Shown here piece after piece: positions 13,955 to 26,503 of a stretch of DNA of 64,000 nt (the first letter of the stretch is position 1; the number at the start of each line of letters is the position of its first letter). A program made the position numbers and the translations under genes. The stretch covers positions 4,030,001 to 4,094,000 of the forward strand of contig NZ_CP036426.1 in the NCBI RefSeq assembly GCF_007752535.1. The letters are read 5' to 3'. Origin of the DNA: Tautonia plasticadhaerens (GTDB taxonomy: Bacteria; Planctomycetota; Planctomycetia; Isosphaerales; Isosphaeraceae). The notes beneath the pieces are model-generated. The model was not told the origin of the DNA. It made no database searches and saw only the letters and a program-made list of their open reading frames with translations.

Positions 13955-14806
13955 TCATCGGGCGGCGACGGGATTCTCCAGGGTCCCGAGCCCCTCGATC
14001 GCGATCCGGACCACGTCGCCGGCCCGGAGGGAGAACTCGTCGGGGGGGACGATGCCGGTGCCGGTGAGCAAGACGACGCCGTCGGGGAAGGACTGGTCCC
14101 GGCCGAGCCAGGAGATGAGGTCGTCGAGGGGTCGGGCGAGCCGGGAGGTGGAGGTGTCTCCCGAGAAGACAGGGGAGCCGTCCCGGAGGATCTCCAGGGT
14201 GATGGCGAGGTCGGCGGGGTCGGGGACGGCGGAGATGAGGGTGACGCAGGGGCCGAGGGCGCAGGAGGACTCGTAGACCTTGGCCTGGGGGAGATACAGG
14301 GGGTTCCGGCCCTCGATGTCCCGGGCCGAGACGTCGTTGCCGATCGAGAGGCCGACGAGGCGGAGGGTGTCGTCGAGCACCAGGGCCAGCTCGGGCTCGG
14401 GGACGGACCATTTCGTGTCGGACCGGACCCGGATCGGGGCGCCGTGGCCGACGGCCCGGCCGGCGGTGGCCTTGAAGAACAGCTCGGGGCGGTCGGCGGA
14501 GTAGACGAGGTCGTAGAAGGAGCCCCCCTGCTCGGATTCCTCCTGGCGGGCGACCTTGCTGCGGATGTAGGTGACGCCGGCGGCCCAGATCTCGTGGTCG
14601 TCGACGGGGGGGAGCAGCCGGATCGAGGAGACGGGGAGGGCGGGGCGGTCGGGGTCGAGGCGTCGGGCGGCCTCGGCGGCGGGGTCGGTGGCGTGGAGGA
14701 TCGTCGCGATCCGCCGGGATCCGCGCAGGGGGCGGAGGGAGTCGCCCTCGATCAGGCCGAGGCGGGGGAGGCCGGACTCGGGGTCGAGAAATTTCGCAAG
14801 CTGCAT
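13955..14806 (-). CDS. Fumarylacetoacetate hydrolase family protein
   Basis: 283 residues, cytoplasmic. It shows the family fold and metal-site regions: an N-terminal cap, then LLPPVDDHEIWAAGVTY, the acidic cluster WSVPEPELALVLDD with the metal-binding Glu pair, and GNDVSARDIEG, the usual Asp-containing strand. The C-terminal part carries LLTGTGIVPPDEFSLRAGD, typical of the bacterial branch. Family members cleave or isomerise beta-diketones and 2-oxo acids in aromatic and sugar-acid breakdown. No other gene of such a pathway is nearby, so the exact substrate is open. Confidence 0.88.
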   Translation of the reverse strand: MQLAKFLDPESGLPRLGLIEGDSLRPLRGSRRIATILHATDPAAEAARRLDPDRPALPVSSIRLLPPVDDHEIWAAGVTYIRSKVARQEESEQGGSFYDLVYSADRPELFFKATAGRAVGHGAPIRVRSDTKWSVPEPELALVLDDTLRLVGLSIGNDVSARDIEGRNPLYLPQAKVYESSCALGPCVTLISAVPDPADLAITLEILRDGSPVFSGDTSTSRLARPLDDLISWLGRDQSFPDGVVLLTGTGIVPPDEFSLRAGDVVRIAIEGLGTLENPVAAR

Positions 14807-15031: not shown

Positions 15032-16300
15032 ATGGCGCCGGATCGGATCGTCGTGGTCGGCCACGCCGCGGTGACGTGCCTCGGGCCGGACCTGGACACC
15101 ACCTGGCGGCGACTCGTCGCCGGCGAGTCGGGCCTGTCGAGCCGCCCGGATCGGCTCGACCCGGGGCAGTACCTCCAGGACGTCGCCGGGCTGGTCGACG
15201 GCGTCGGGCCGGGGACCCCCCTCGAAGATCCGGCGATCGCCCGGCTCGGGTCTCGGTTCGTGCACTTCGGGCTCCTGGCCGCCCGCCAGGCCTGGGCCGA
15301 TGCGGGCCTGGATCGAGGTGACCTCGGCGTGCCGGGCGACCGGGTGGCGGTGGTGGTCGGCTCGGGGCTCGGGGGGCTGGACCTCTACCACGCCGAGGGC
15401 CGCCGGGCCTCCTCCCGCAAGACGCTGGCGACCGGGCCCTATCTTGTGCCGGGGCTCATCGCCAATCAAGCCGCCGGGCAGGTCTCCCAGCAGCTCGGGC
15501 TGCACGGGCCGAGCCTCTCCCCGGCCAACGCCTGCGCCACCGGGGGGCACGCGATCGCCAGCGCCGCCCTGCTGCTCCGGGCCGGCGAGGCCGACCTCGC
15601 CGTCTGCGGGGCGAGCGAGAGCGCCTTCACGCCCGAGGTCGTCAACGGCTTCGTCACCATGAAGGCGATGCTCGCCCGGAAGCCCGGCGACCGATCGGCC
15701 GGGGACCCCTCGCAGGCGAGCCGCCCCTTCAGCGTCGACCGGGCCGGGTTCGTGATGGCCGAGGGGGCGGGGATCCTGGTGCTGGCGACCGAGTCGGCCG
15801 CCCGGCGGTTCGGCCTGACCCCGCAGGCGGTCCTGGAGGGGTGGGCGACCAATTCGGACGGCTTCCACGTGGCCCAGCCGCACCCGGACCGGGTCCGGCG
15901 CTGCCTGGAGCTGGCGATCGGCCACGCGGGGATCCACCCCGAGCAGGTCGACTACTACAACGCCCACGGCACGAGCACCTCGGTGAACGACCGGGTGGAG
16001 GCGGAGGCCGTGAAGGCGATCTTCGGCGACCGGGCGAGGGCATTGCCGGTCAGCTCGATCAAGGGGGCGGTCGGCCACGCGCTGGGGGCGGCCCCGGCGA
16101 TCGAGGCGGCGGTCTGCGTGCGGGCCCTGCGGGAGCAGGTGGTGCCGCCGACGATCAACCACCGGGCCGACCCGGCCCTGGACCTCGACTTCGTCCCGGA
16201 CGAGGCCCGGGGGGCCCGGCTCGGCCGGATCCTCTCGGCCTCGTTCGGCTTCGGCGGCACGAATAACGCCCTGGTCTTCGGGAGGTGGAACGATGCGTGA
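15032..16300 (+). CDS. Beta-ketoacyl-ACP synthase (FabF-like)
   Basis: 422-residue ketosynthase that condenses acyl chains with malonyl-ACP. The full Cys-His-His triad is present: Cys168 (NACATGG), His312 (NAHGTST) and His349 (AVGHALG). The C-terminal FGFGGTNNAL loop is intact. The ATG at 15032 has GGGAGGGGG just upstream; a longer frame before it is non-coding in character. The stop overlaps the next start (ATGCGTGA), so synthesis of the carrier protein is coupled. A second, more conventional FabF is encoded at 25.2-26.5 kb, so this copy is probably dedicated to a special acyl chain rather than bulk fatty-acid synthesis. Confidence 0.92.
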   Translation: MAPDRIVVVGHAAVTCLGPDLDTTWRRLVAGESGLSSRPDRLDPGQYLQDVAGLVDGVGPGTPLEDPAIARLGSRFVHFGLLAARQAWADAGLDRGDLGVPGDRVAVVVGSGLGGLDLYHAEGRRASSRKTLATGPYLVPGLIANQAAGQVSQQLGLHGPSLSPANACATGGHAIASAALLLRAGEADLAVCGASESAFTPEVVNGFVTMKAMLARKPGDRSAGDPSQASRPFSVDRAGFVMAEGAGILVLATESAARRFGLTPQAVLEGWATNSDGFHVAQPHPDRVRRCLELAIGHAGIHPEQVDYYNAHGTSTSVNDRVEAEAVKAIFGDRARALPVSSIKGAVGHALGAAPAIEAAVCVRALREQVVPPTINHRADPALDLDFVPDEARGARLGRILSASFGFGGTNNALVFGRWNDA

Positions 16301-16550
16301 TCCCCAGCTGTTCGACGCCGTCTGCGCGCTGATCCGCTCCGTCGTCAAGCTCGACCCCTCGGTGCCGATCGCCCCCGAGTCGACCCTGGTCGACGACCTC
16401 GGGGTCGACTCGCTCGACCTCGTCAGCGTCTTCCTCGAAGTCCAGGACGCCTTCGGCGTGGTGGTCGACGAGGAGGATCTGAACGGGATCGTCTCGGTGG
16501 CCGACCTGGTGGCGTACGTGGAGGGGCGTCGGGCGTCCCAGGCGGCCTGA
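16293..16550 (+). CDS. Acyl carrier protein
   Basis: 85 residues, acidic, four-helix carrier protein. The phosphopantetheine site is Ser40 in LGVDSLDLV, the canonical DSL motif. It carries growing acyl chains on a thioester. Its gene overlaps the ketosynthase gene by eight bases, so this ACP is very likely the partner of that enzyme. The residues around the site differ from the usual housekeeping LGADSLD form, which fits a specialised carrier. The acyltransferase gene follows 133 bases later. Confidence 0.93.
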   Translation: MRDPQLFDAVCALIRSVVKLDPSVPIAPESTLVDDLGVDSLDLVSVFLEVQDAFGVVVDEEDLNGIVSVADLVAYVEGRRASQAA

Positions 16551-16683
16551 GCCGGGGATCGGCGGCCGCGGGGCCGGGCGGGCGTCCCTCGGGCTTGGCC
16601 CGGCGATCCGCCCGGGACGGCCCGCCATCCGTCGCCGTACGCCCGCTACGCGGCGGCTTCCGTCCGCGTCGGCCGAAACCGAG

Positions 16684-17661
16684 ATGCAGTCCGTCGGGTC
16701 CGGGGGCAAGTCGAGCATGGGCCGTCGCGGGATCAATACGAGGAAGGGGCTCCTCCGGGCGACGCTGCCGCTGCTGAGATGGCTGCCGGTCCGGACGGGA
16801 CTGGGCCTGATCGGGGAGATCGGCCGCTGGGAGTATCGCCTGTCGCCGGGGTCGAGGGCCCGGTTCGACGGGGCGATCCGGCGTCACGCCGAGATCCTCG
16901 GGGAACGCTGGGATCCCGGGGTCGTCGGCCCGGAACTGGCGGCCAACCGGATCCGGTCCCGGGCCCGGGACCTGCTGCTCGACGGCCGGACCGACGCCCA
17001 GCTCGACGGGGTCTTCCGGGTCGAGGGCCGGGACCGGCTCGACGAGGCGGTGGCGCGGGGCAGGGGGGTGCTGCTGCTGGGCAACCACTTCGGGGCCCAC
17101 CTGCTGATGGCCTACTGGATGATCCGGCACGGCTACCAGTGGCGGATGTTCGGCGAGCGGCCGAGGCACATCTCGAAGCTCATGGCGGCCCAGTTCGCGC
17201 TGGAGGGGCCGCTGGGGCAATCCCGCCTGTTCGTCTCCCGCAAGACCAACCCGGCCGAGGCCGCCGGGGCGATCCTGAGGGCGGCCCGGGTGCTCAAGGG
17301 GGGGATCGTGCTCTCGATCGCCTCCGACGTCCGCTGGCCGACCCCGCCGAACGCGACGGCCCGCTTCCTCGGCCGGTCGTACGACTTCTCCTCGACCTGG
17401 GTGACGCTGGGGGCCCTCTCCGGCGCCCCGGTGGTGCCGGCCTACTGCTCGATCGAGCGGGACGGGACCTACCGCGTCGAATTCGAGCCCTCGTTCGCGA
17501 TCCCGACCGCCGCGGCGCGGGACGAGGCGCTGGCGGCCCACTGGGTCCAGCACGGCCTGGATCTGATCGAGGGCCGCGTCCGCACCGACCCGGCGAACAG
17601 CATCGACTACTTCTTCTGGGAGGAGGACGAGGCGAGGCCGAGGGCCCAGATGGCGGGGTGA
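16684..17661 (+). CDS. LpxL/HtrB-like acyltransferase with altered catalytic motif
   Basis: 325 residues with the fold of lauroyl/myristoyl (lipid A late) acyltransferases, inner-membrane associated through a hydrophobic N-terminal stretch. The family active-site motif is H-X4-(D/E). Here the corresponding string is NHFGAHLLMA: His135 is present but the fourth-spaced acidic residue is Leu140. Downstream family blocks are recognisable, including FGERPRHISK, the FVSRKT region and GGIVLSIASDV. It may use another acidic residue, or belong to a subfamily with different chemistry. Placed after a ketosynthase and ACP, it probably transfers a special acyl chain to a membrane lipid. An ATG at 16717 is an alternative start. 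Confidence 0.82.
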   Translation: MQSVGSGGKSSMGRRGINTRKGLLRATLPLLRWLPVRTGLGLIGEIGRWEYRLSPGSRARFDGAIRRHAEILGERWDPGVVGPELAANRIRSRARDLLLDGRTDAQLDGVFRVEGRDRLDEAVARGRGVLLLGNHFGAHLLMAYWMIRHGYQWRMFGERPRHISKLMAAQFALEGPLGQSRLFVSRKTNPAEAAGAILRAARVLKGGIVLSIASDVRWPTPPNATARFLGRSYDFSSTWVTLGALSGAPVVPAYCSIERDGTYRVEFEPSFAIPTAAARDEALAAHWVQHGLDLIEGRVRTDPANSIDYFFWEEDEARPRAQMAG

Positions 17662-17692
17662 GCGGTGGCCCATCCGGGCCCGCCGGGCAGAT

Positions 17693-17734
17693 CTCCGACC
17701 CTCGCCCCGCCCTCGGGGGAGGGGGTGGCCGGAG
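17693..17734 (+). terminator. Stem-loop after the ketosynthase/ACP/acyltransferase genes
   Basis: CTCCGACC at 17693-17700 pairs with GGCCGGAG at 17727-17734 with one mismatch, and the inner GC-rich bases (CTCGCCCC / GGGGGAG) extend the stem. It begins 31 bases after the acyltransferase stop codon. No U-tract follows. Confidence 0.5.
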
Positions 17735-17785
17735 GCCGGGCGCGGGGGCTCGGATGACGCGCGAGGCGTGGCGAATCCTCGAGGA

Positions 17786-17826
17786 CCCCTCACCCCGGCC
17801 CTCTCCCCGCGACCGGGGATGAGGGG
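17786..17826. repeat. Stem-loop of the CCCCTCACCCCGG type
   Basis: Thirteen base pairs with one bulged T: 17786-17798 against 17813-17826. The sequence resembles a CTCACCCCxxCCCTCTCCCC intergenic motif found in many bacterial genomes. It could act as a second terminator. Confidence 0.5.
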
Positions 17827-17900
17827 GGCGGAGTCTGGCCCGGCCCCGAACCACTTCTGCCCGGGTCGTGTCGGGCGGGTCGACCGGCCCCGACCGCGGG

Positions 17901-17928
17901 TTGACCGATCAACGGGACTTGTTAGATT
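17901..17928 (+). promoter_or_regulatory. Sigma-70-type promoter for the aminotransferase
   Basis: TTGACC at 17901-17906 and TAGATT at 17923-17928 with a 16-base spacer. Transcription would begin near 17935, giving a leader of about 45 bases before the ATG at 17981. Confidence 0.6.
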
Positions 17929-17980
17929 TCATGGAGCAGGGTCCTCCGCTCCCTCTCCCCCCCAATCACCCCCGGCTGTC

Positions 17981-19264
17981 ATGAATCCGTCGTCGTCCCT
18001 GAGTCGATTGGCCCGAGACCGAGGAGGGTCGCCGATCAGCGACCTGATGAAGCGTGCGCTCGACAACCCCCGGCTGATCTCCCTGGCCGCCGGGTTCGTC
18101 GACCCCGCCTCGCTGCCGCTGGATCCCACCAATCGGGCCGTCGACGCCCTGCTGGGGGATCCGGCCCTCGGCCGTCGGGCCTTGCAGTACGGGACGACCA
18201 TCGGCGACCCGTCGCTCCGGGCCCGGCTCGTCCGGCGGCTGGAGCGGGAGGAGGACGCCCTGCCGGGGCAGTTCGAGCACGTCGTGCCCCGGACGGTGGT
18301 GACCAACGGCTCCCAGCAGTTGCTCTACCTGGTGGCCGAGGCGCTGATCGACCCGGGGGACGTCGTCCTGGTCGAGTCGCCGACCTATTTCGTCTTCATG
18401 GGGCTGATCGAGGGGCGGGGGGCCCGGGTGATCGGCGTGGAGACGGACGAGGGCGGCCTGAACCTGGAGGCGCTGGAGGAGACGCTCCGCAGGCTCGAGG
18501 CCGAGGGCGACCTGCCCCGGGTGAAGCTGATCTACACGGTCAGCGAGCACTCGAACCCGACCGGGATCAGCCTGGCGGAGGGCCGCCGGGGGCCGCTGGT
18601 CGAGCTGGCGAACCGGTGGTCGAAGGGGCATCAGATCTTCGTGCTCGAGGACGCGGCGTATCGGGGCCTGAGCTTCTCGGGCCGGGAGCCGTCGAGCGTC
18701 TGGAGGCACGACGAGGAGGGGCGCTGCGTCATCCTCGCCCGGACCTTCAGCAAGAGCTTCAGCCCGGGGCTCAAGACCGGCTTCGGCGTGTTGCCCGAGG
18801 CGCTGGTCGGGCCCGTGCTGAGCCTGAAGGGGGACCACGACTTCGGCTCCAACAACTTCGCCCAGATGGTGCTCGATCGCGCCCTCGGCGACGGCGGCTA
18901 CGACGCCCAGGTGGCCCGGCTCCGCGAGGTCTACCGGGACAAGTGCGCCGTGCTGCTCGGGGCGCTGGGGGAGCACCTCGGCGGGGTCGAGGGCGTGAGC
19001 TGGACGGTCCCCAGGGGCGGGCTCTACGTCTGGCTGACGGTGCCGGAGTGGCTGGACACGGGCAAGGCGGGGCCGCTCTTCTCCCGGGCCCTGGAGCACG
19101 AGGTGCTCTACGTGCCGGGGTGCTACGCCTTCGCCGAGGAGCCGGGACCGGTGCCGAACAACCACGCCCGGCTCTGCTTCGGCGTGCCGGACGAGGATCA
19201 GTTGCGCGAGGGAGCCCGGCGGCTGGCCGGGGCCCTGGCGAGCTGCGGCGAGCAGGTCGCCTGA
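17981..19264 (+). CDS. PLP-dependent class I/II aminotransferase
   Basis: 427 residues, fold-type I enzyme of the 2-aminoadipate/MocR-catalytic-domain branch. The N-terminus (SPISDLMKRALDNPRLISLA) is typical of that branch. The PLP Lys is Lys258 in RTFSKSFSPGLKTG, with the Asn of HSNPTG and Asp/Tyr of VLEDAAYR around the ring. No DNA-binding domain is attached. It would move an amino group between an amino acid and a 2-oxo acid; the substrate cannot be set from sequence. The ATG at 17981 follows a promoter; a longer frame before it runs through a hairpin. It is followed by two LptF/LptG-type genes on the same strand with a 94-base gap. Confidence 0.88.
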   Translation: MNPSSSLSRLARDRGGSPISDLMKRALDNPRLISLAAGFVDPASLPLDPTNRAVDALLGDPALGRRALQYGTTIGDPSLRARLVRRLEREEDALPGQFEHVVPRTVVTNGSQQLLYLVAEALIDPGDVVLVESPTYFVFMGLIEGRGARVIGVETDEGGLNLEALEETLRRLEAEGDLPRVKLIYTVSEHSNPTGISLAEGRRGPLVELANRWSKGHQIFVLEDAAYRGLSFSGREPSSVWRHDEEGRCVILARTFSKSFSPGLKTGFGVLPEALVGPVLSLKGDHDFGSNNFAQMVLDRALGDGGYDAQVARLREVYRDKCAVLLGALGEHLGGVEGVSWTVPRGGLYVWLTVPEWLDTGKAGPLFSRALEHEVLYVPGCYAFAEEPGPVPNNHARLCFGVPDEDQLREGARRLAGALASCGEQVA

Positions 19265-19358
19265 AACGGGCTGAGTCGGGCGGGACGGGATCGGGCGCCG
19301 AGTCGATCGATCGGACCGGGGCAGGGAACGCCCCGATGGCCTCGCGAGGGAACGCGAC

Positions 19359-20588
19359 GTGAACGGACTCCTTCGCCGATACGCGACCGGCATCCTGCCG
19401 AGGTACGTCATGGCGCAGGTCGCCAAGGCGTTCTCGCTGGCCTTGCTGATGCTCACCAGCATCTTCGTGCTCGTCGTGGTGGTCGCCAAGGCGGCCGACG
19501 TGGGGCTCGGGCCGCGGGAGATCGCCATGATGCTCCCCCTGGCGGTGCCGAGCACCCTGCCCTACACGGCGCCGGTGTCGCTGCTGTTCGCGGTGTCGGT
19601 CGTCTACGGCCGGATCGCCTCGGACAACGAGGTGCTCGCCGTGAAGGCGTCGGGCCAGGGGGCGATGACGATGATGCTGCCGTCGTTCCTCGTCGGGGCG
19701 ATCCTCAGCGGCGGCCTGATCTTCCTGAGCAACGACCTGATCCCGAGGGCCACCCACCAGACCAAGGTGGCGCTCTTGAGCAACCTGGAGGAGCACTTCT
19801 ACCGGATCCTGAAGAAGGAGCGGTCGTTCGACAACCCGCTCTGGCCGTTCAAGATCGAGGTGGAGGACGTCGAGGACAAGACCCTCGTCGGCGCCCGGTT
19901 CTCGCACCGGAACAAGTCCCCGGAGGCCGAGTCGCCGTTCGACCTCTACATCTTCGCCGAGCGGGCGGCGATCCGGTTCGACAAGGACGAGGAGAAGATC
20001 GTGGTCGGCCTGGAGGACGCCTACGTCATCGGCGACCACAAGCGGCCGGACTTCGTGCTGATCGACAAGGAACGCCTCGAATTGCCGATGCCCGGCAACC
20101 GGGACATGGTCGGCACGGTGCAGGAGCTGACCACCGGCCAGATCATGGACGAGCAGGAGCTCTGCATGACGAAGTCGGTCGAGGACCGCCGGAGGCAGTC
20201 GGTGGCGGCGTCGCTCTGGATCGCCTCGGGCCGGCCGAGGCTGGTCAACTGGGGCTTCGTCCGCCAGGCGTTCATCGACTACGACTACTTCGAGCACCGC
20301 TACGACAAGCTCGAGACCGAGAAGCAGATGCGGGTGGCCATCGCGTTCAGCCCCCTGTTCTTCGTGCTGCTCGGCACGCCGGTCGGCATCTGGAGGGCCC
20401 GGGGGGACTTCCTCACGGCCTTCATGGTCTGCTTCCTGCCGATCATCACCATCTATTACCCGCTCACCCTCTTCGGCGTGAACCTGGGCAAGGAGGGGAT
20501 GGTCGAGCCGCTCCTGGCCCTCTGGGCCGGCAACCTCGTGCTGGCGGTGCTCTGCGGCCTGGTGCTCCGGCCGGTGCTGCGGCACTGA
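19359..20588 (+). CDS. LptF/LptG-family permease (first copy)
   Basis: 409 residues with the YjgP/YjgQ architecture: three transmembrane helices in the first 125 residues, a periplasmic beta-jellyroll-like region to about residue 325, and three more helices to the end. LptF and LptG together with the ATPase LptB extract lipopolysaccharide or a related lipid from the inner membrane. The motif TPVGIWRARGDF at the start of the second helix block fits the family. The start is GTG with GAGGGAA upstream. A second family member follows after 55 bases, so the pair can form the heterodimer, though which is LptF and which LptG is uncertain. No LptB ATPase gene is in the window. Confidence 0.88.
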   Translation: MNGLLRRYATGILPRYVMAQVAKAFSLALLMLTSIFVLVVVVAKAADVGLGPREIAMMLPLAVPSTLPYTAPVSLLFAVSVVYGRIASDNEVLAVKASGQGAMTMMLPSFLVGAILSGGLIFLSNDLIPRATHQTKVALLSNLEEHFYRILKKERSFDNPLWPFKIEVEDVEDKTLVGARFSHRNKSPEAESPFDLYIFAERAAIRFDKDEEKIVVGLEDAYVIGDHKRPDFVLIDKERLELPMPGNRDMVGTVQELTTGQIMDEQELCMTKSVEDRRRQSVAASLWIASGRPRLVNWGFVRQAFIDYDYFEHRYDKLETEKQMRVAIAFSPLFFVLLGTPVGIWRARGDFLTAFMVCFLPIITIYYPLTLFGVNLGKEGMVEPLLALWAGNLVLAVLCGLVLRPVLRH

Positions 20589-20643
20589 TCCGGCGGCGGG
20601 TCGGTCGGATCGGGCCGGGTTTCCAAGGAAGGGAGGGGGCCGG

Positions 20644-21819
20644 ATGCTGCGGATCCTGGACAGGCAGCGCTACTGGGCCTTCCTGAAGGCCTACGTCATC
20701 TGCTTCGTCTCGCTGGTCGGGCTGATCATCGTCATCGACGCCTTCGCCAACTTCGACGAGTTCACCCAGGCCGCCGGCGGCCTGGCGCTGCTGAAGAAGA
20801 TCGGCCGCTATTACCTCGTGCGGACGAGCCTGTTCCTGGACCGGCTCAGCGGGGTGATCGCCATGATGGCCGCCGTCTTCACGGCGACCTGGATGCAGCG
20901 CAACAACGAGCTGCTGGCGATGCTCGCCGCCGGGGTCGGCACCAAGCGGGTCATCCGCCCGGTGCTTATCTCCGCCTGCCTGGTCAACGGCGTCGCCGTC
21001 CTGAACCAGGAATGGGTGATGCCCGAGATCGCCGACGAGCTGATGCAGAAGCCGGCCCACTTCGACGGCAAGCAGGTCACCGCCTTCCACAGCAGGCAGG
21101 ACCGCAACGGCGTCGCCGTCAGCGTGGGGACCGGCGGCGAGGGGGACCCCCGGCGTCGGATCGTCACCAAGTTCCACGCCTTCCTACCCGTGCCCGCCCT
21201 GGGCACCTTCGGCACCGTCGACGCCGCCGAGGCGGCCTACGTCCCCCCCGGGCACGCCGGCGTGCCCCACTCCGGCGGCTGGCTGCTCCGGCGCGCCCGG
21301 GTCAGCCCCCCCGACGCCCCGGTCGACCCCGAGTTGCTGATCGAGCTGCAGGCCCCCGACGGCCTGGCGGGCTTCCCCCCCTCGAAGGACGGCCTGGCGG
21401 ATCTCGGCGGCCGGACCTTCTTCCTCAGGACCGACGTCTCCTTCAAGGCGATCACCCGGGACCACCGCGAGTGGTTCCGATACGCCTCCACCCCCGACCT
21501 GGTCGAGGCCCTGGCCGACCCGTCGAACGACCCGGAGAAGACCGAGATCGCCGTGTACCTGCACACGAGGATGCTCCGCCCGCTGATGGGCATGGCGCTG
21601 CTGTTCCTCTCCCTGCCGCTGGTCCTCGGCGGCGAGGGGAGGAACATGTTCCTCAACCTCGGCCTGTCGCTGGCGACCTCGGCCGCCTATTACGGGACGC
21701 TCAACGTGGCCCAGTACCTCGGCGGCAACGGGGTGCTCACGCCGATGATCGCCGCCTGGGGGCCGCTGGTCGCCTTCGGGACGATCGCGGCGGCGCGCTG
21801 GGACTCGATCCGGACCTGA
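20644..21819 (+). CDS. LptF/LptG-family permease (second copy)
   Basis: 391 residues, same topology as its neighbour: N-terminal helices (AFLKAYVICFVSLVGLIIVI onward), a periplasmic domain of about 190 residues, and C-terminal helices with MALLFLSLPLVLGG. A strong AAGGAAGGGAGG precedes the ATG. It is likely co-transcribed with the first copy and forms the transmembrane part of a lipid exporter with it. The two proteins are diverged, as expected for an LptF/LptG pair and not a recent duplication. An unusually Pro- and His-rich loop in the periplasmic domain (around 21240-21330) has no obvious counterpart in the E. coli proteins. Confidence 0.88.
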   Translation: MLRILDRQRYWAFLKAYVICFVSLVGLIIVIDAFANFDEFTQAAGGLALLKKIGRYYLVRTSLFLDRLSGVIAMMAAVFTATWMQRNNELLAMLAAGVGTKRVIRPVLISACLVNGVAVLNQEWVMPEIADELMQKPAHFDGKQVTAFHSRQDRNGVAVSVGTGGEGDPRRRIVTKFHAFLPVPALGTFGTVDAAEAAYVPPGHAGVPHSGGWLLRRARVSPPDAPVDPELLIELQAPDGLAGFPPSKDGLADLGGRTFFLRTDVSFKAITRDHREWFRYASTPDLVEALADPSNDPEKTEIAVYLHTRMLRPLMGMALLFLSLPLVLGGEGRNMFLNLGLSLATSAAYYGTLNVAQYLGGNGVLTPMIAAWGPLVAFGTIAAARWDSIRT

Positions 21820-21995: not shown

Positions 21996-24900
21996 ATGGC
22001 CACCGACGTCCCCGACCGTTGCCCGACCTGCGGCGCCGACCTCCCCGCCGACGTCCCCCCGGGCACATGCCCCCGCTGCTTCGCCCCCCTCGAGCCCGAC
22101 GGCCCTCCCCCGGCCCGGGACCGCTCGGGCGAATCCGCCCCCCCCGTCGACTTCGACGGTCCCGGGGGCCTGATGGAGACGCTCCCCTCCGGCGAGGGGG
22201 ACGCGACTCGCGGGCCGCTCCGGGACACGCAGGAGGGCCCGGAGCCTCCCCTCGTCCGGCCCGGCTCCCCCGGGCTCCTGGCCCCGACCGGCCCACCGTG
22301 CCGCATCCGGCTGCTCGGCGAGATCGCCCGGGGGGGGATGGGTGCGATCCTCAGGGGGAGGGACGAGGTCCTCGGCCGCGAGGTCGCCGTCAAGGTCCTC
22401 CTGGACCGGCACCGCGACCGTCCCGACCTGATCCGGCGGTTCGTCGAGGAGGCGCGGATCGGCGGCCAGCTCCAGCACCCCGGCGTCGTGCCGATCTACG
22501 AGCTGGGCGCCTTCGACGACCGACGCCCCTACTTCGCCATGAAGCTGGTGGAGGGGCGGACCCTCGCGGCCCTGCTGGCCGGCCGGCCGTCGCCGGCCGA
22601 CGGGCTGCCGAGGCTCCTGGGGGTCTTCGAGCAGGTCTGCCAGACGATGGGCTATGCCCACGCGCGCGGGGTCGTCCACCGGGACCTCAAGCCGCCGAAC
22701 GTGATGGTCGGCGGCTTCGGCGAGGTCCAGGTCATGGACTGGGGCCTGGCGAAGCTCCTCCGACGGGGAGGGGTCACCGACGACCGGCCGGCCGAGGAGG
22801 TCGACGAGCCGGAGTCGATCGACGACGCGATCGGGGACGGGTCGGGCTCCGACCCCTCCCGGGCCGGGTCGATCCTGGGCACCCCGGCGTACATGAGCCC
22901 CGAGCAGGCCCGGGGCGAGGTGGGCCGGCTCGACGAGCGGTCCGACGTCTTCGCGCTGGGCTCGATCCTCTGCGAGATCCTGACCGGGCAGCCGGCGTAC
23001 GCCGGCCGCGCCGCCGACGAGGTCCGCCGCCGGGCGGCCCGGGGGGACACGGGCGAGGCGCTGGCCCGCCTCGGCCCCTGCGGGGCCGACGCCGAGCTGA
23101 TCGCCCTGGCGAGGGACTGCCTGGCCGTCGACCCCTGCGCCCGCCCCCGCGATGCCGGGGTCGTCGCCTCCCGCCTGACCGCCCACCTCGCGGGCGTCCA
23201 GCGTCGGCTGCGCGAGGCCGAACGCGACCGGGCCGTGGCCGAGGCCCGGGCCGGGGCGGAACGCTCGAGGCGACGGCTCCAGCTCGGCCTGGCCGCGTCG
23301 ATCCTGGCCCTGATGGCCCTCGGCGGCCTGGCCACCGCCTACGAGGTCCGGCGGGGCCACGACCGAGCGACCCGCGCCGCCCGGGGGCTGGCCGAGGTGG
23401 GGGCCCTGATCGACCGGGCCCGACGCCGGCCCGAGGAGCCGGGCCGCTGGGACGAGGCGCTGGAGGCGATCCGGGGAGCCCGGGACGAGGTGGCCGGGGG
23501 TGGGGCCGGGGCCCTGGCGATGCTCGCCGCGCAGCGGGCCGACGCCCGGGCCGGATTGCAGGACGCCGAGCGCGACGCGCAACTGCTCCGGAGGCTGGCC
23601 GAGCTCCGCGTCCTCCGGGCCTTCCAGGGCCTGGTCCCGTCCGAGGAGGGATACGCCCAGGCCTTCCGGGACGCCGACCTGGACCTCCGGTCGCTCCCGG
23701 TCGACGAGGTCGTGGCCCGCCTCCGTCGCCGTCCCGGGCCGGTGGTCGTCGCGCTGGTCCCCTACCTGGACGACTGGTTCATGATGCTCGGGGGGGGCGG
23801 CGCCCCCGGCCTGGAGCGGACGCTCCTGGAGATCGGCCGGGCGGCCGACCCCGACCCCTTCCGCAGTCGGCTCCGAGACCTGTTGCTCTCGGCCCGGGAC
23901 CGGGGCGCCCTGGGGGCCCAACTCCCGGCGCTTCGGGGGCTGGCGACCGACCCGGAGGCGGATGAGTTGCCGGCCCCGACGGCCGTCCTGCTGGGCTGGG
24001 CCCTGGCCTGGGCCGGGGACATGGAGGGGGAGGCGGCCCTGCTGGAACGCGCCGTGGTCCGCCATCCCGACGACCTCTGGATCAACCTCACCCTGGGCTA
24101 CGTGCTGACCCAGGTGAACCGGCCCGAGGACGCGCTCCGCTACTACACCGTGGCCCGGGCCCTCCGGCCCGATTCGGCGTTCTACATGGCGGTGCTGCTC
24201 CGGCAACTGGGACGGGACGAGGAGGCGGGACGCATCTACGACGACCTGGGCCGCCGCCTCCCCGACCGGTTCGAGATCCTCGGGGATCATGGCCTGTTCC
24301 TGCTCGACCGGGGCCGGGCCGAGGAGGCCGGGCCGGTGCTGGACCGCGCGGTCGCGGTGAAGCGGGCCGAGATCGCCCGACGGCCCGACTCCACCCGCCT
24401 CCGCCTCGACCTGATCGAGCTGCTGGCCCGCCGGGGGATGCTCGACGAGGCGATCGCCGCCTACCGGGAGGCGACCCGGCTCGGGATCGCGGATCTCGTG
24501 TTCCACGCCTCCTTCGCCGGCACCATGTCGGCCCGGGGGAGACACGAGGAGGCGCTCGCCGCCCTCGGCGAGGTGAAGGCCCTGGACCCCGATTACGGCC
24601 CGGAATGGGTGCGGGGGATCGAGCGCAAGGCGGCACTGGCCCCGAGGCTCCCGGGCGTGATCTCCGGCGACGACGCCCCGGCCGACGCCGCCGAGGCGAT
24701 CGACTTCGCCATGCTCGCCTACGACGCCCGGGCCTACGCCGACGCCACCCGCCTCTTCACCGAGGCCCTGGGGGCCGGATCGGGGCTGGGCGAGGACCGA
24801 CGGGCCCGGCACCGCTCCGACGCCGCCCGATGCGCCGTCCGGGCCGCCGCCGAGGCCTCGGATGACCCGGCGGGCGGCCCCGCCGCCGGGGCCGAACTCC

Positions 24901-25145
24901 GGGGTCGGGCGCTCTCCTGGCTCCGGGCCGACCTGGGGCGCTGGGCCGAGCTGCTCGACGCCGATGCCCCCGCCGGCCGCCTCGTGGTCGAGCTCTCCCT
25001 GAGGCGATGGCAGACGGACCCCGACCTGGCGCCCGTCCGGGGCCCGTCCGCCCTGGCCCGCCTGCCCGTCGCCGAGCGGGCCGAGTGGCGCACCTTCTGG
25101 TCCGAGGTCGACCGGCTCCGCTCGGACTCCTTGCCGTCACCCTGA
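21996..25145 (+). CDS. Ser/Thr protein kinase with zinc ribbon and TPR domains
   Basis: 1,049 residues. A zinc ribbon with CxxC at 9-12 and 25-28 opens the protein. The kinase domain follows a Pro-rich linker: glycine loop IARGGMGA, catalytic Lys133, HRDLKPPNV with Asp230, and DWG (Asp248) in place of the usual DFG, a substitution common in planctomycete kinases. [10 protein letters not shown] closes the activation segment. One transmembrane helix ([19 protein letters not shown]) separates the cytoplasmic kinase from a long C-terminal part with several TPR-like repeats, such as [17 protein letters not shown]. Kinase activity looks intact. The C-terminal TPR part would sense or bind a partner on the far side of the membrane. 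It is transcribed alone, after the permease genes. Confidence 0.92.
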
Positions 25146-25222: not shown

Positions 25223-26503
25223 TCAGACCCGGGCCAGCACCAGCGAGGCGTTCTGGCCGCCGAAGCCGAAGCTGTTGGACATCGCCACCCGCACGGAATC
25301 TTCCCTCGCCGTGTTGGGGACGTAGTCGAGGTCGCAATTCGGGTCCGGCGTGGCCTGGTTGATGGTGGGGGGGATGACGCCCCGGTCCAGGGTGATGGCG
25401 GTGGCGGCGGCCTCCAGGGCGCCGGAGGCGCCGATGAGGTGGCCGACCATCGACTTCTGCGAGCTGATCGGGATCGTCTTCGACCGGTGGCCGAAGACGC
25501 GCTTCACGGCGTTGGTCTCCATGATGTCGTTGAGCCGGGTGCTCGTGCCGTGGGCGTTGATGTAGTTGACGGCGCTGGGGTCGGTCTTGGCCTCCCTCAG
25601 GGCCGCGTGGATGGAGAGCGCCGCCCCCTTGCCGGTGGGCTCGGGGCGGGTGATGCCGTAGGCGTCGAAGGAGGAGCCGTAGCCGGTGACCTCGGCGAAG
25701 ATCTTGGCGCGTCGGCGTCGGGCGTTCTGCAGGCTCTCCAGCATCAGGACCGCCGCGCCCTCGCCCAGGACGAAGCCGTCCCGCTCGCCGTCGAAGGGGC
25801 GGGAGACCTCGGCCGGGGCCCGGGTGGAGCGGCTCAGCGCGTTCATGGCCTGGTAGGCGACCAGCAGCAGGGGGTCGAGCCGGCTGTCGCAGCCGCCGGC
25901 GAGCATCAGGTCGGCGTCCCCCCGGGCGATCAGCCGGAAGGCCTCCCCCACGGCCTGGGTGCCGGCGGCGCAGGCGGTGACGATCGTGTTGTTGGGCCCC
26001 ATCGCCTGGTGCAGGATCGAGATGTGCGCCGCCGCCATGTTCGGCAGGTGCTTCATCAGCCAGAGCGGGAACATCGACTCGGCCTGGGCGATCGAGAACT
26101 GCTTCCAGTCGAGCGTGCCGTCCCGGGCCATGCCGGCGGCGATCGGCGCCGCCAACTCGCCCAGGGCCATCGGCGTGATGCCGGTGCCCATGCAGACGCC
26201 GAATCGGGCCGGGTCGACCCGGTCGGGGTCGATCCCGGCGTCCTCGGCCGCCAGGGCGGCGGCCCCGACGGCGAAGTTCACCGCCCGGCTCATCACCTTG
26301 GCGTTCTTCTTGTGCTCGCCGAGGTAGGGGGTCACGTCGAACCCCTTCACCTCGCCGGCGATCCGGACGGGGAGGCCGGTCGCATCGAAGCTCTCGATCG
26401 GGCCGACGCCGGAACGGCCTTCGGCGATCGCCTCGCTGAACGCGACGCGACCGACGCCGTTCGGAGCGACGATCCCGATCCCCGTGATCACCACCCGGCG
26501 CAT
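25223..26503 (-). CDS. fabF: Beta-ketoacyl-ACP synthase II
   Basis: 426 residues, elongating ketosynthase of fatty-acid synthesis. The triad is Cys178 (TACAAGTQA), His318 (NAHGTST) and His355 (SMVGHLIGA), and the gatekeeper-loop region FGFGGQNASL is intact. It is closer to textbook FabF than the copy at 15 kb. The ATG at 26503 directly follows a purine-rich GAGGGGGG. A convincing minus-strand promoter lies about 125-150 bases upstream. It is divergent from an aminotransferase gene and convergent with the kinase gene, so it forms its own transcription unit. Confidence 0.94.
   Translation of the reverse strand: MRRVVITGIGIVAPNGVGRVAFSEAIAEGRSGVGPIESFDATGLPVRIAGEVKGFDVTPYLGEHKKNAKVMSRAVNFAVGAAALAAEDAGIDPDRVDPARFGVCMGTGITPMALGELAAPIAAGMARDGTLDWKQFSIAQAESMFPLWLMKHLPNMAAAHISILHQAMGPNNTIVTACAAGTQAVGEAFRLIARGDADLMLAGGCDSRLDPLLLVAYQAMNALSRSTRAPAEVSRPFDGERDGFVLGEGAAVLMLESLQNARRRRAKIFAEVTGYGSSFDAYGITRPEPTGKGAALSIHAALREAKTDPSAVNYINAHGTSTRLNDIMETNAVKRVFGHRSKTIPISSQKSMVGHLIGASGALEAAATAITLDRGVIPPTINQATPDPNCDLDYVPNTAREDSVRVAMSNSFGFGGQNASLVLARV

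Follow-up and report, generated by a model that had tools for sequence, protein, structure and literature searches.

We analyzed a 64,000-nucleotide stretch of the Tautonia plasticadhaerens genome (Isosphaeraceae, Planctomycetota; contig NZ_CP036426.1, positions 4,030,001 to 4,094,000 of the forward strand; hereafter the window), in which a FabF-type ketosynthase (KS), an acyl carrier protein (ACP), an LpxL-type acyltransferase (LPAT), a pyridoxal phosphate (PLP) aminotransferase and the permeases LptF and LptG are encoded consecutively, all on the plus strand, at 15032-21819. The row is supported as a conserved unit of the family Isosphaeraceae and the chances seem to us about even that it is an operon for late acylation, dephosphorylation and export of lipid A (lipopolysaccharide, LPS), the dephosphorylation falling to a membrane phosphatase (X) encoded within the row in many relatives. 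A preliminary description had listed the six genes, with a second ketosynthase overlapping its own ACP and the housekeeping FabF at 25.2 kb, and our Pfam/NCBIfam profile scans confirmed these observations. Its interpretation is partly supported, since a special acyl chain made here and attached to a membrane lipid fits the gene content (KS, its own ACP, an acyltransferase of the LpxM/PatA fold and LptFG), while the dedicated export and the amino-lipid product that it proposed find no support (see below). The features of the row and its surroundings are:

15032-16300, plus strand: KS, FabF-type ketosynthase (PF00109/PF02801)
16293-16550, plus strand: ACP, acyl carrier protein (PF00550, 48.1 bits; serine of the DSL motif present)
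16684-17661, plus strand: LPAT, LpxL-type acyltransferase with LpxM/PatA fold (PF03279, 25.4 bits against a cut-off of 22.3)
17662-17980: intergenic gap between LPAT and the aminotransferase, 319 bp (sigma-70-like site at 17901-17928; hairpin at about 17786-17826)
17981-19264, plus strand: PLP aminotransferase, class I/II (PF00155)
19359-20588, plus strand: LptF, GTG start (PF03739, 139.1 bits)
20644-21819, plus strand: LptG (PF03739, 123.7 bits)
13955-14806, minus strand: FAA-hydrolase family protein (FAH), divergent from KS (PF01557)
21996-25145, plus strand: TPR-repeat serine/threonine kinase, the next gene after LptG
25223-26503, minus strand: FabF, separate from the row and 3.4 kb downstream of it (PRK07314, TIGR03150)

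Conservation was assessed in 45 Isosphaeraceae genomes from 21 genera, genes being taken as linked when they lay within 10 kb on one contig. LPAT had a match in 44 of them (in G027 probably the paralogue only), X in 44 and LptG in 43, and G025 and G027 are without one or more genes of the row. The whole order had been suggested for a check across the family, and LPAT and LptG were linked in 27 genomes, representing 14 of the 21 genera; linkage of LPAT and X was also seen in 27 genomes, and that of LPAT, X and LptG together in 15 genomes of 11 genera. Contig ends interrupt the row in G013, G015, G021 and G044, in a pattern that fits the intact order; in G012 the LPAT and LptFG halves are about 30 kb apart, and they are found on different contigs in g13, G024, g19 and G003. 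Neighbors were counted in the 20 of the 27 linked loci that were fetched, some of them on contigs that end close to LptG: the PLP aminotransferase and LptF were present in all 20, FAH in 19, KS in 18 and ACP in 16. The flanking genes were kept less (FabF near LptG in five loci, HlyD beside FAH in one, the kinase near LptG in none), so that background synteny is lower and the conservation of the row is specific. The divergent arrangement of FAH and KS persists in 19 of the 20 loci, even though FAH chemistry shows no evident connection to lipids.

The spacing of the genes points in the same direction. Our first table of gaps took the starts from the query alignment and gives lower bounds, and real start codons were therefore used for Singulisphaera acidiphila, L097 and L087. 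In S. acidiphila (L094) the joins measure -4, 49, 57 or 87, -4, 76 and 50 bp, that is, all six are shorter than 90 bp and two are 4-bp overlaps, one of them between X and the aminotransferase gene; in L087 they measure -4, 35, 57-102, -4, 45-75 and 53 bp. A further scan of named genomes with one peptide pattern returned 31 loci, many of which overlap the family genomes and are not independent counts. The unity of the row, left unproven in the preliminary description, is now supported by the 27 linked genomes and by the tight joins of S. acidiphila, although the halves do separate in several genera. A permease pair that was simply the only LptFG of the genome among unrelated neighbors had been named as a refutation of the proposal; it is indeed the only one, but its neighbors cannot be called unrelated because they are conserved.

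The export half of the row is housekeeping. A whole-genome search with PF03739 gave three matches, all of them within this LptF/LptG pair, which is the sole locus, the separate LptB that had been proposed as a check is encoded at C1:6077925-6078632 (328.8 bits, cut-off 240), and LpxC was found in 45/45 family genomes; LptF and LptG are therefore the ordinary LPS exporter and not a dedicated one. Both are below the equivalog cut-offs of TIGR04407 and TIGR04408 (93.8 of 230 and 99.5 of 240 bits), which lowers the equivalog label and not their reading as the only LptFG-type permease pair of the genome. Each family genome contained one LptG locus or none, some of the matches being in pieces, and no second locus was seen. 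LptD has been reported for S. acidiphila (PMC3422733). In the window's genome LpxC is fused to FabZ, with LpxA adjoining, and in that region (L138:5396-9015, C1 at approximately 6.380-6.384 Mb) a GFO/IDH/MocA oxidoreductase follows. This last order may resemble that of GnnA in diamino-sugar lipid A.

Gene X, of about 460 codons, lies between LPAT and the aminotransferase in many relatives, and in the window's genome it is found at C1:5344261-5345583 on the minus strand. Fourteen aligned X proteins are 40-58% identical to the first row of the alignment and all 14 carry an HCX5R loop (HCHG..DR.P). The two rows scanned with PF03162 scored 27.5 and 34.1 bits against a cut-off of 27, and the C-terminal domain matches the structures of Siw14 and of plant PFA-DSP phosphatases (Foldseek, 6byf, E 6e-5), with TpbA, a periplasmic enzyme, at rank 36 among the structural matches of the catalytic domain. 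The AlphaFold2 (AF2) model, of moderate confidence (pLDDT 74.2), has about seven membrane helices, and X is predicted to be a seven-helix membrane cysteine phosphatase. When the alignment was split at helix borders set by hand from this model, columns at least 90% identical made up 15/33, 8/23 and 4/12 of loops 1, 3 and 5 (27/68 together), against 0/5, 0/16 and 0/8 of loops 2, 4 and 6 (0/29 together), and the odd loops were net negative and the even ones net positive. This pattern of conservation and charge predicts a periplasmic location for the catalytic domain and the conserved loops.

The fold of LPAT is clearer than its sequence affiliation. Its AF2 model (pLDDT 90.5) gave a Z of 20.6 over nearly the full length with both LpxM (5kn7) and PatA (5f2t) in the VIA comparison, where, among the matches listed, the next entry reached 8.7 and the other folds scored far lower; 251 residues were aligned to 5kn7 with an rmsd (root-mean-square deviation) of 4.1, and identity to the top structural matches was 15-17%. 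No NCBIfam LpxL model matched at E 0.001, and the best sequence match, a weak one, was PatA (21.3 bits, 27.6 bits in another search). Alignments suggest the ATG at 16717 as the true start. His124, Gly126 and Asp204 are kept, and Asp204 and Glu147, invariant across 23 rows, are candidate stand-ins for the missing acid of the HX4D/E motif, a motif that is intact, as HX4E (HYGNWE), in the canonical LpxL at another locus of the window's genome. The HX4 acid is also absent from three rows of a family paralogue, LPAT2. In both genomes inspected LPAT2 is directly after an acyl-AMP ligase (L135:2888-9916; L139:7352-10097), and upstream of this ligase the window's genome encodes two GDSL lipases.

KS and the FabF at 25223-26503 are distinct proteins with 35% identity, the latter belonging to the FabF family by its match to the PRK07314 subfamily model (461.2 bits, cut-off 387), with TIGR03150 slightly below its cut-off (479.6 bits against 493.75). 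Cys168, His312, Lys344 and His349 of KS are invariant in 17 aligned rows that include the window FabF. KS overlaps the ACP gene by 8 bp in the window, and among the 24 relatives with both genes there is an overlap of 8 or 4 bp in 15 and a gap of 8-11 bp in nine. None of the listed NCBIfam ACP models reaches its cut-off with this ACP. KS was present in 26 of the 29 primary LPAT loci examined, and ACP was beside LPAT in 24. The expected KS or ACP gaps of L039, L047, L048, L049, L050 and L054 were checked and contain no matching frame; KS and LPAT follow each other without an ACP between them in L048, L049, L050 and L054 (genera g2 and g18), KS is missing from the row in L039 and L047 (g8 and g5), and the remaining genes are ordered as usual in all six. 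Extra ACP-LPAT pairs without a FabF-type KS match alongside were seen in Singulisphaera and relatives (L109, L111, L112 and L113), with a KAS III-type synthase between ACP and LPAT in L112.

The hairpin and promoter between LPAT and the aminotransferase had been taken to mean at least two transcripts. Both elements exist: the only promoter-like site found in 13.7-22.1 kb (0.2 expected) is the one at 17901-17928, in this gap. The boundary drawn from the hairpin is unsupported and was dropped, since the three terminator-like sites of the same scan all fall outside the gap, the folding energy of -32.2 kcal/mol is ordinary (mean -28.0 and lowest -38.9 among 300 mononucleotide shuffles), and X is located there in many relatives. 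The 21-base hairpin arm has a single occurrence within the window. Of the 27 genomes in which LPAT and LptG are linked, 15 have gene X at this position, so that the promoter-bearing 319-bp gap of the window corresponds to the place of X in relatives; tblastn found no remnant of X in the gap. Two transcripts are possible for the window itself, because X is absent from that position in its genus. One genome carries an additional gene between LPAT and the aminotransferase (L054:8520-11480), which by visual inspection resembles histidinol dehydrogenase.

Outside the family, the searches covered LPAT, LptF, LptG, X and the PLP enzyme. In a sample of 148 genomes of the class (32 family members and 116 others), LptG was found in 147 and LPAT, at E 1e-20, in 32/32 family members and 0/116 others; in 294 genomes of the phylum, LPAT matched 24 at 1e-10, two family members scoring above 75 bits and the others at most 74.3 bits. 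With the window LptF as tblastn query, no LptF was found beside LptG in 40/40 neighborhoods outside the family (L115-L134, L147-L166). Twelve of the 40 have a cysteine phosphatase (HCxAGxHRTG) directly upstream of LptG, and nine have the PLP enzyme there. One locus has two such phosphatases, and among the resulting 13 proteins one helix was predicted in 11, two in one and none in one. At least 34 of the 116 class genomes outside the family encode an X-like phosphatase on the LptG strand, no more than 1 kb upstream of that gene (tblastn added one further genome, G134), and nine of the 116 have the PLP enzyme (E 1e-70) within 231 bp of LptG. The links of phosphatase and PLP enzyme to LptG thus recur outside the family where LPAT is absent, which argues that they are older or recurrent and that LPAT is a family-level addition.

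Under the proposed late lipid A pathway, KS would elongate an acyl chain on its private ACP, with the housekeeping fatty acid enzymes supplying the reductions and the dehydration, and LPAT would transfer the chain from ACP onto lipid A or a closely related glycolipid on the cytoplasmic side of the membrane, acting either later than or in parallel with the canonical LpxL, whose gene lies elsewhere. X would dephosphorylate the flipped lipid on the periplasmic side, and LptFG together with the separate LptB would export the finished product; in Tautonia, X lies outside the operon yet is retained in the genome. Several observations weigh against this scheme. In 19/19 and 23/23 rows LPAT has Leu, Met, Ile or Val in place of the HX4D/E acid, with the histidine invariant, so that acyl transfer by LPAT is not certain. 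KS is missing from 3/29 and ACP from 5/29 of the primary LPAT loci, LPAT and LptFG are apart in g9, g13, g15, g19 and G003, and X is outside the operon in Tautonia, g2 and g18. Two charge features of X speak against a periplasmic placement of its catalytic domain: the 26 residues that follow the last helix are net positive (+3.4), and its initial seven residues have no net positive charge (-0.2); by eye, the short X relatives also carry positive residues after their helix. Finally, the scheme offers no step for the PLP aminotransferase, whose tie to LptG is one of genomic context only.

The most serious competitor, to which we assign a real but clearly minor share of the probability, is that the product made or trimmed by the KS-ACP-LPAT-X block is an envelope lipid other than lipid A (a glycolipid, a phospholipid or a hopanoid derivative), and that the block lies beside LptFG either since LptFG exports this lipid or through co-expression of envelope genes. 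PatA, to which LPAT has its best though weak sequence similarity, acylates phosphatidylinositol mannosides, g13, g15 and g19 keep LPAT and X joined while LptFG is elsewhere, and the genome already encodes a canonical LpxL; however, linkage to the sole LptFG holds in 14/21 genera, X stays with LptFG and not with LPAT in g9, and X-type phosphatases adjoin LptG in genomes without LPAT. It is rather unlikely that we are looking at two or three unrelated transcription units held together by slow rearrangement, with no common pathway. The caution of the preliminary description about unity leaned that way, X and the LPAT block are each able to leave the row, and the PLP enzyme, present in 71/116 class genomes outside the family, is away from LptG in 62 of these 71. 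Such a view has to face the two 4-bp start/stop overlaps and six joins below 90 bp of S. acidiphila, the lower conservation of the genes on both sides, and the X-LptG and PLP-LptG adjacencies that recur in other families. That LPAT lacks the usual acyltransferase chemistry, being a lipid-binding protein, a hydrolase or a regulatory pseudoenzyme while KS and ACP feed something else, appears improbable: the acid absent from LPAT and from three paralogue rows is present in the LpxL of the genome, yet LPAT keeps His124, Gly126, Asp204 and the whole fold, has ACP beside it in 24/29 loci, and its paralogue is beside an acyl-AMP ligase in both genomes inspected.

The dedicated amino-lipid pathway of the preliminary description, in which the aminotransferase would make an amino head group, we regard as hardly credible. 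It is true that the aminotransferase belongs to the operon, with a 4-bp overlap with X in S. acidiphila, but LptFG is the sole pair of the genome, and the nearest solved relatives of the enzyme include LysN and kynurenine/aminoadipate aminotransferases (PDB 1x0m, 3aov, 2egy), that is, amino-acid aminotransferases. The enzyme is present in 103/148 class genomes, and the 71 outside the family are all without an LPAT match, clear LPAT matches being restricted to the family. The GnnB-type sugar aminotransferase was also considered for this protein and dropped, as GnnB is a DegT-type aminotransferase and the protein in the row is Aminotran_1_2. Besides, the idea is disfavored because the ornithine lipids of S. 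acidiphila are made by OlsH/OlsG/OlsI, encoded elsewhere (Sinac_1599-1601) in an operon for a GH3-like synthetase, an N-methyltransferase and an alpha/beta-hydrolase (PMC12493201). None of the six row genes matched these families in the Pfam/NCBIfam scans, and the terms 'ketosynthase', 'acyl carrier protein', 'LpxL' and 'Lpt' have 0 occurrences in the main text of that article.

The proposed late lipid A operon points to specific candidate genes for adding one more acyl chain to an outer-membrane lipid and for removing phosphate from it. If it is true that X acts on lipid A, a further phosphatase chemistry, tied to the export permease, would be added to LPS remodelling. A wider and more tentative proposal, which we judge possible though well short of probable, is that the LptG-linked membrane cysteine phosphatases of planctomycetes (the seven-helix X, and the short forms in at least two other families) would constitute a new class of lipid A/LPS phosphatases at the export gate, working in Isosphaeraceae with an LpxM-fold acyltransferase of non-HX4D/E catalysis and a private KS-ACP supply. 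A literature search that covered few subscription journals, so that absence from it is weak, found no description of the lipid A chemistry of this planctomycete group and nothing on PTPMT1 in planctomycetes; as to planctomycete LptG with a phosphatase, or the Isosphaeraceae ACP, the same limited search found only papers that seemed unrelated. S. acidiphila is genetically tractable and a knockout has been reported (PMC12493201), which makes the model directly testable there.

LptF and LptG resemble the exporter permeases in being above the PF03739 cut-off and in forming a single pair, and differ in being below the equivalog cut-offs and, in relatives, in a row with acyl and phosphatase genes. 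LPAT shares the whole fold and the position of the catalytic histidine with LpxL/LpxM (HtrB/MsbB) and PatA, although identity is 15-17%, there is no D/E at His+5 and no NCBIfam LpxL model matches. X has the HCX5R loop and the catalytic-domain fold of the PFA-DSP phosphatases (Siw14 and others) and of TpbA, and unlike the PFA-DSP enzymes it carries about seven membrane helices with conserved loops; the lipid A phosphatases LpxE and LpxF are PAP2 proteins. The window ACP scored 34.2 bits, against a cut-off of 83, with PRK06508, which we take to be the AcpXL model. In the rhizobial acpXL-fabZXL-fabF1XL/F2XL-lpxXL cluster, where LpxXL transfers a very long chain fatty acid to lipid A (PMC5613085), an own ACP, a FabF-type ketosynthase and an LpxL-type acyltransferase are adjacent, as they are here. 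The window row has no FabZ among the scanned neighbors and no second FabF within it, the only other FabF seen being the one 3.4 kb downstream on the minus strand, its ACP is below the curated cut-offs, its LPAT has no HX4 acid, and in relatives the row continues with a phosphatase, an aminotransferase and LptFG. Membership of the AcpXL family is ruled out by the PRK06508 cut-off and by the missing FabZXL and second FabF, and the row is not filed as an AcpXL/LpxXL cluster because these defining parts are missing; in its working it would probably be closest to that rhizobial cluster, while standing outside the family.

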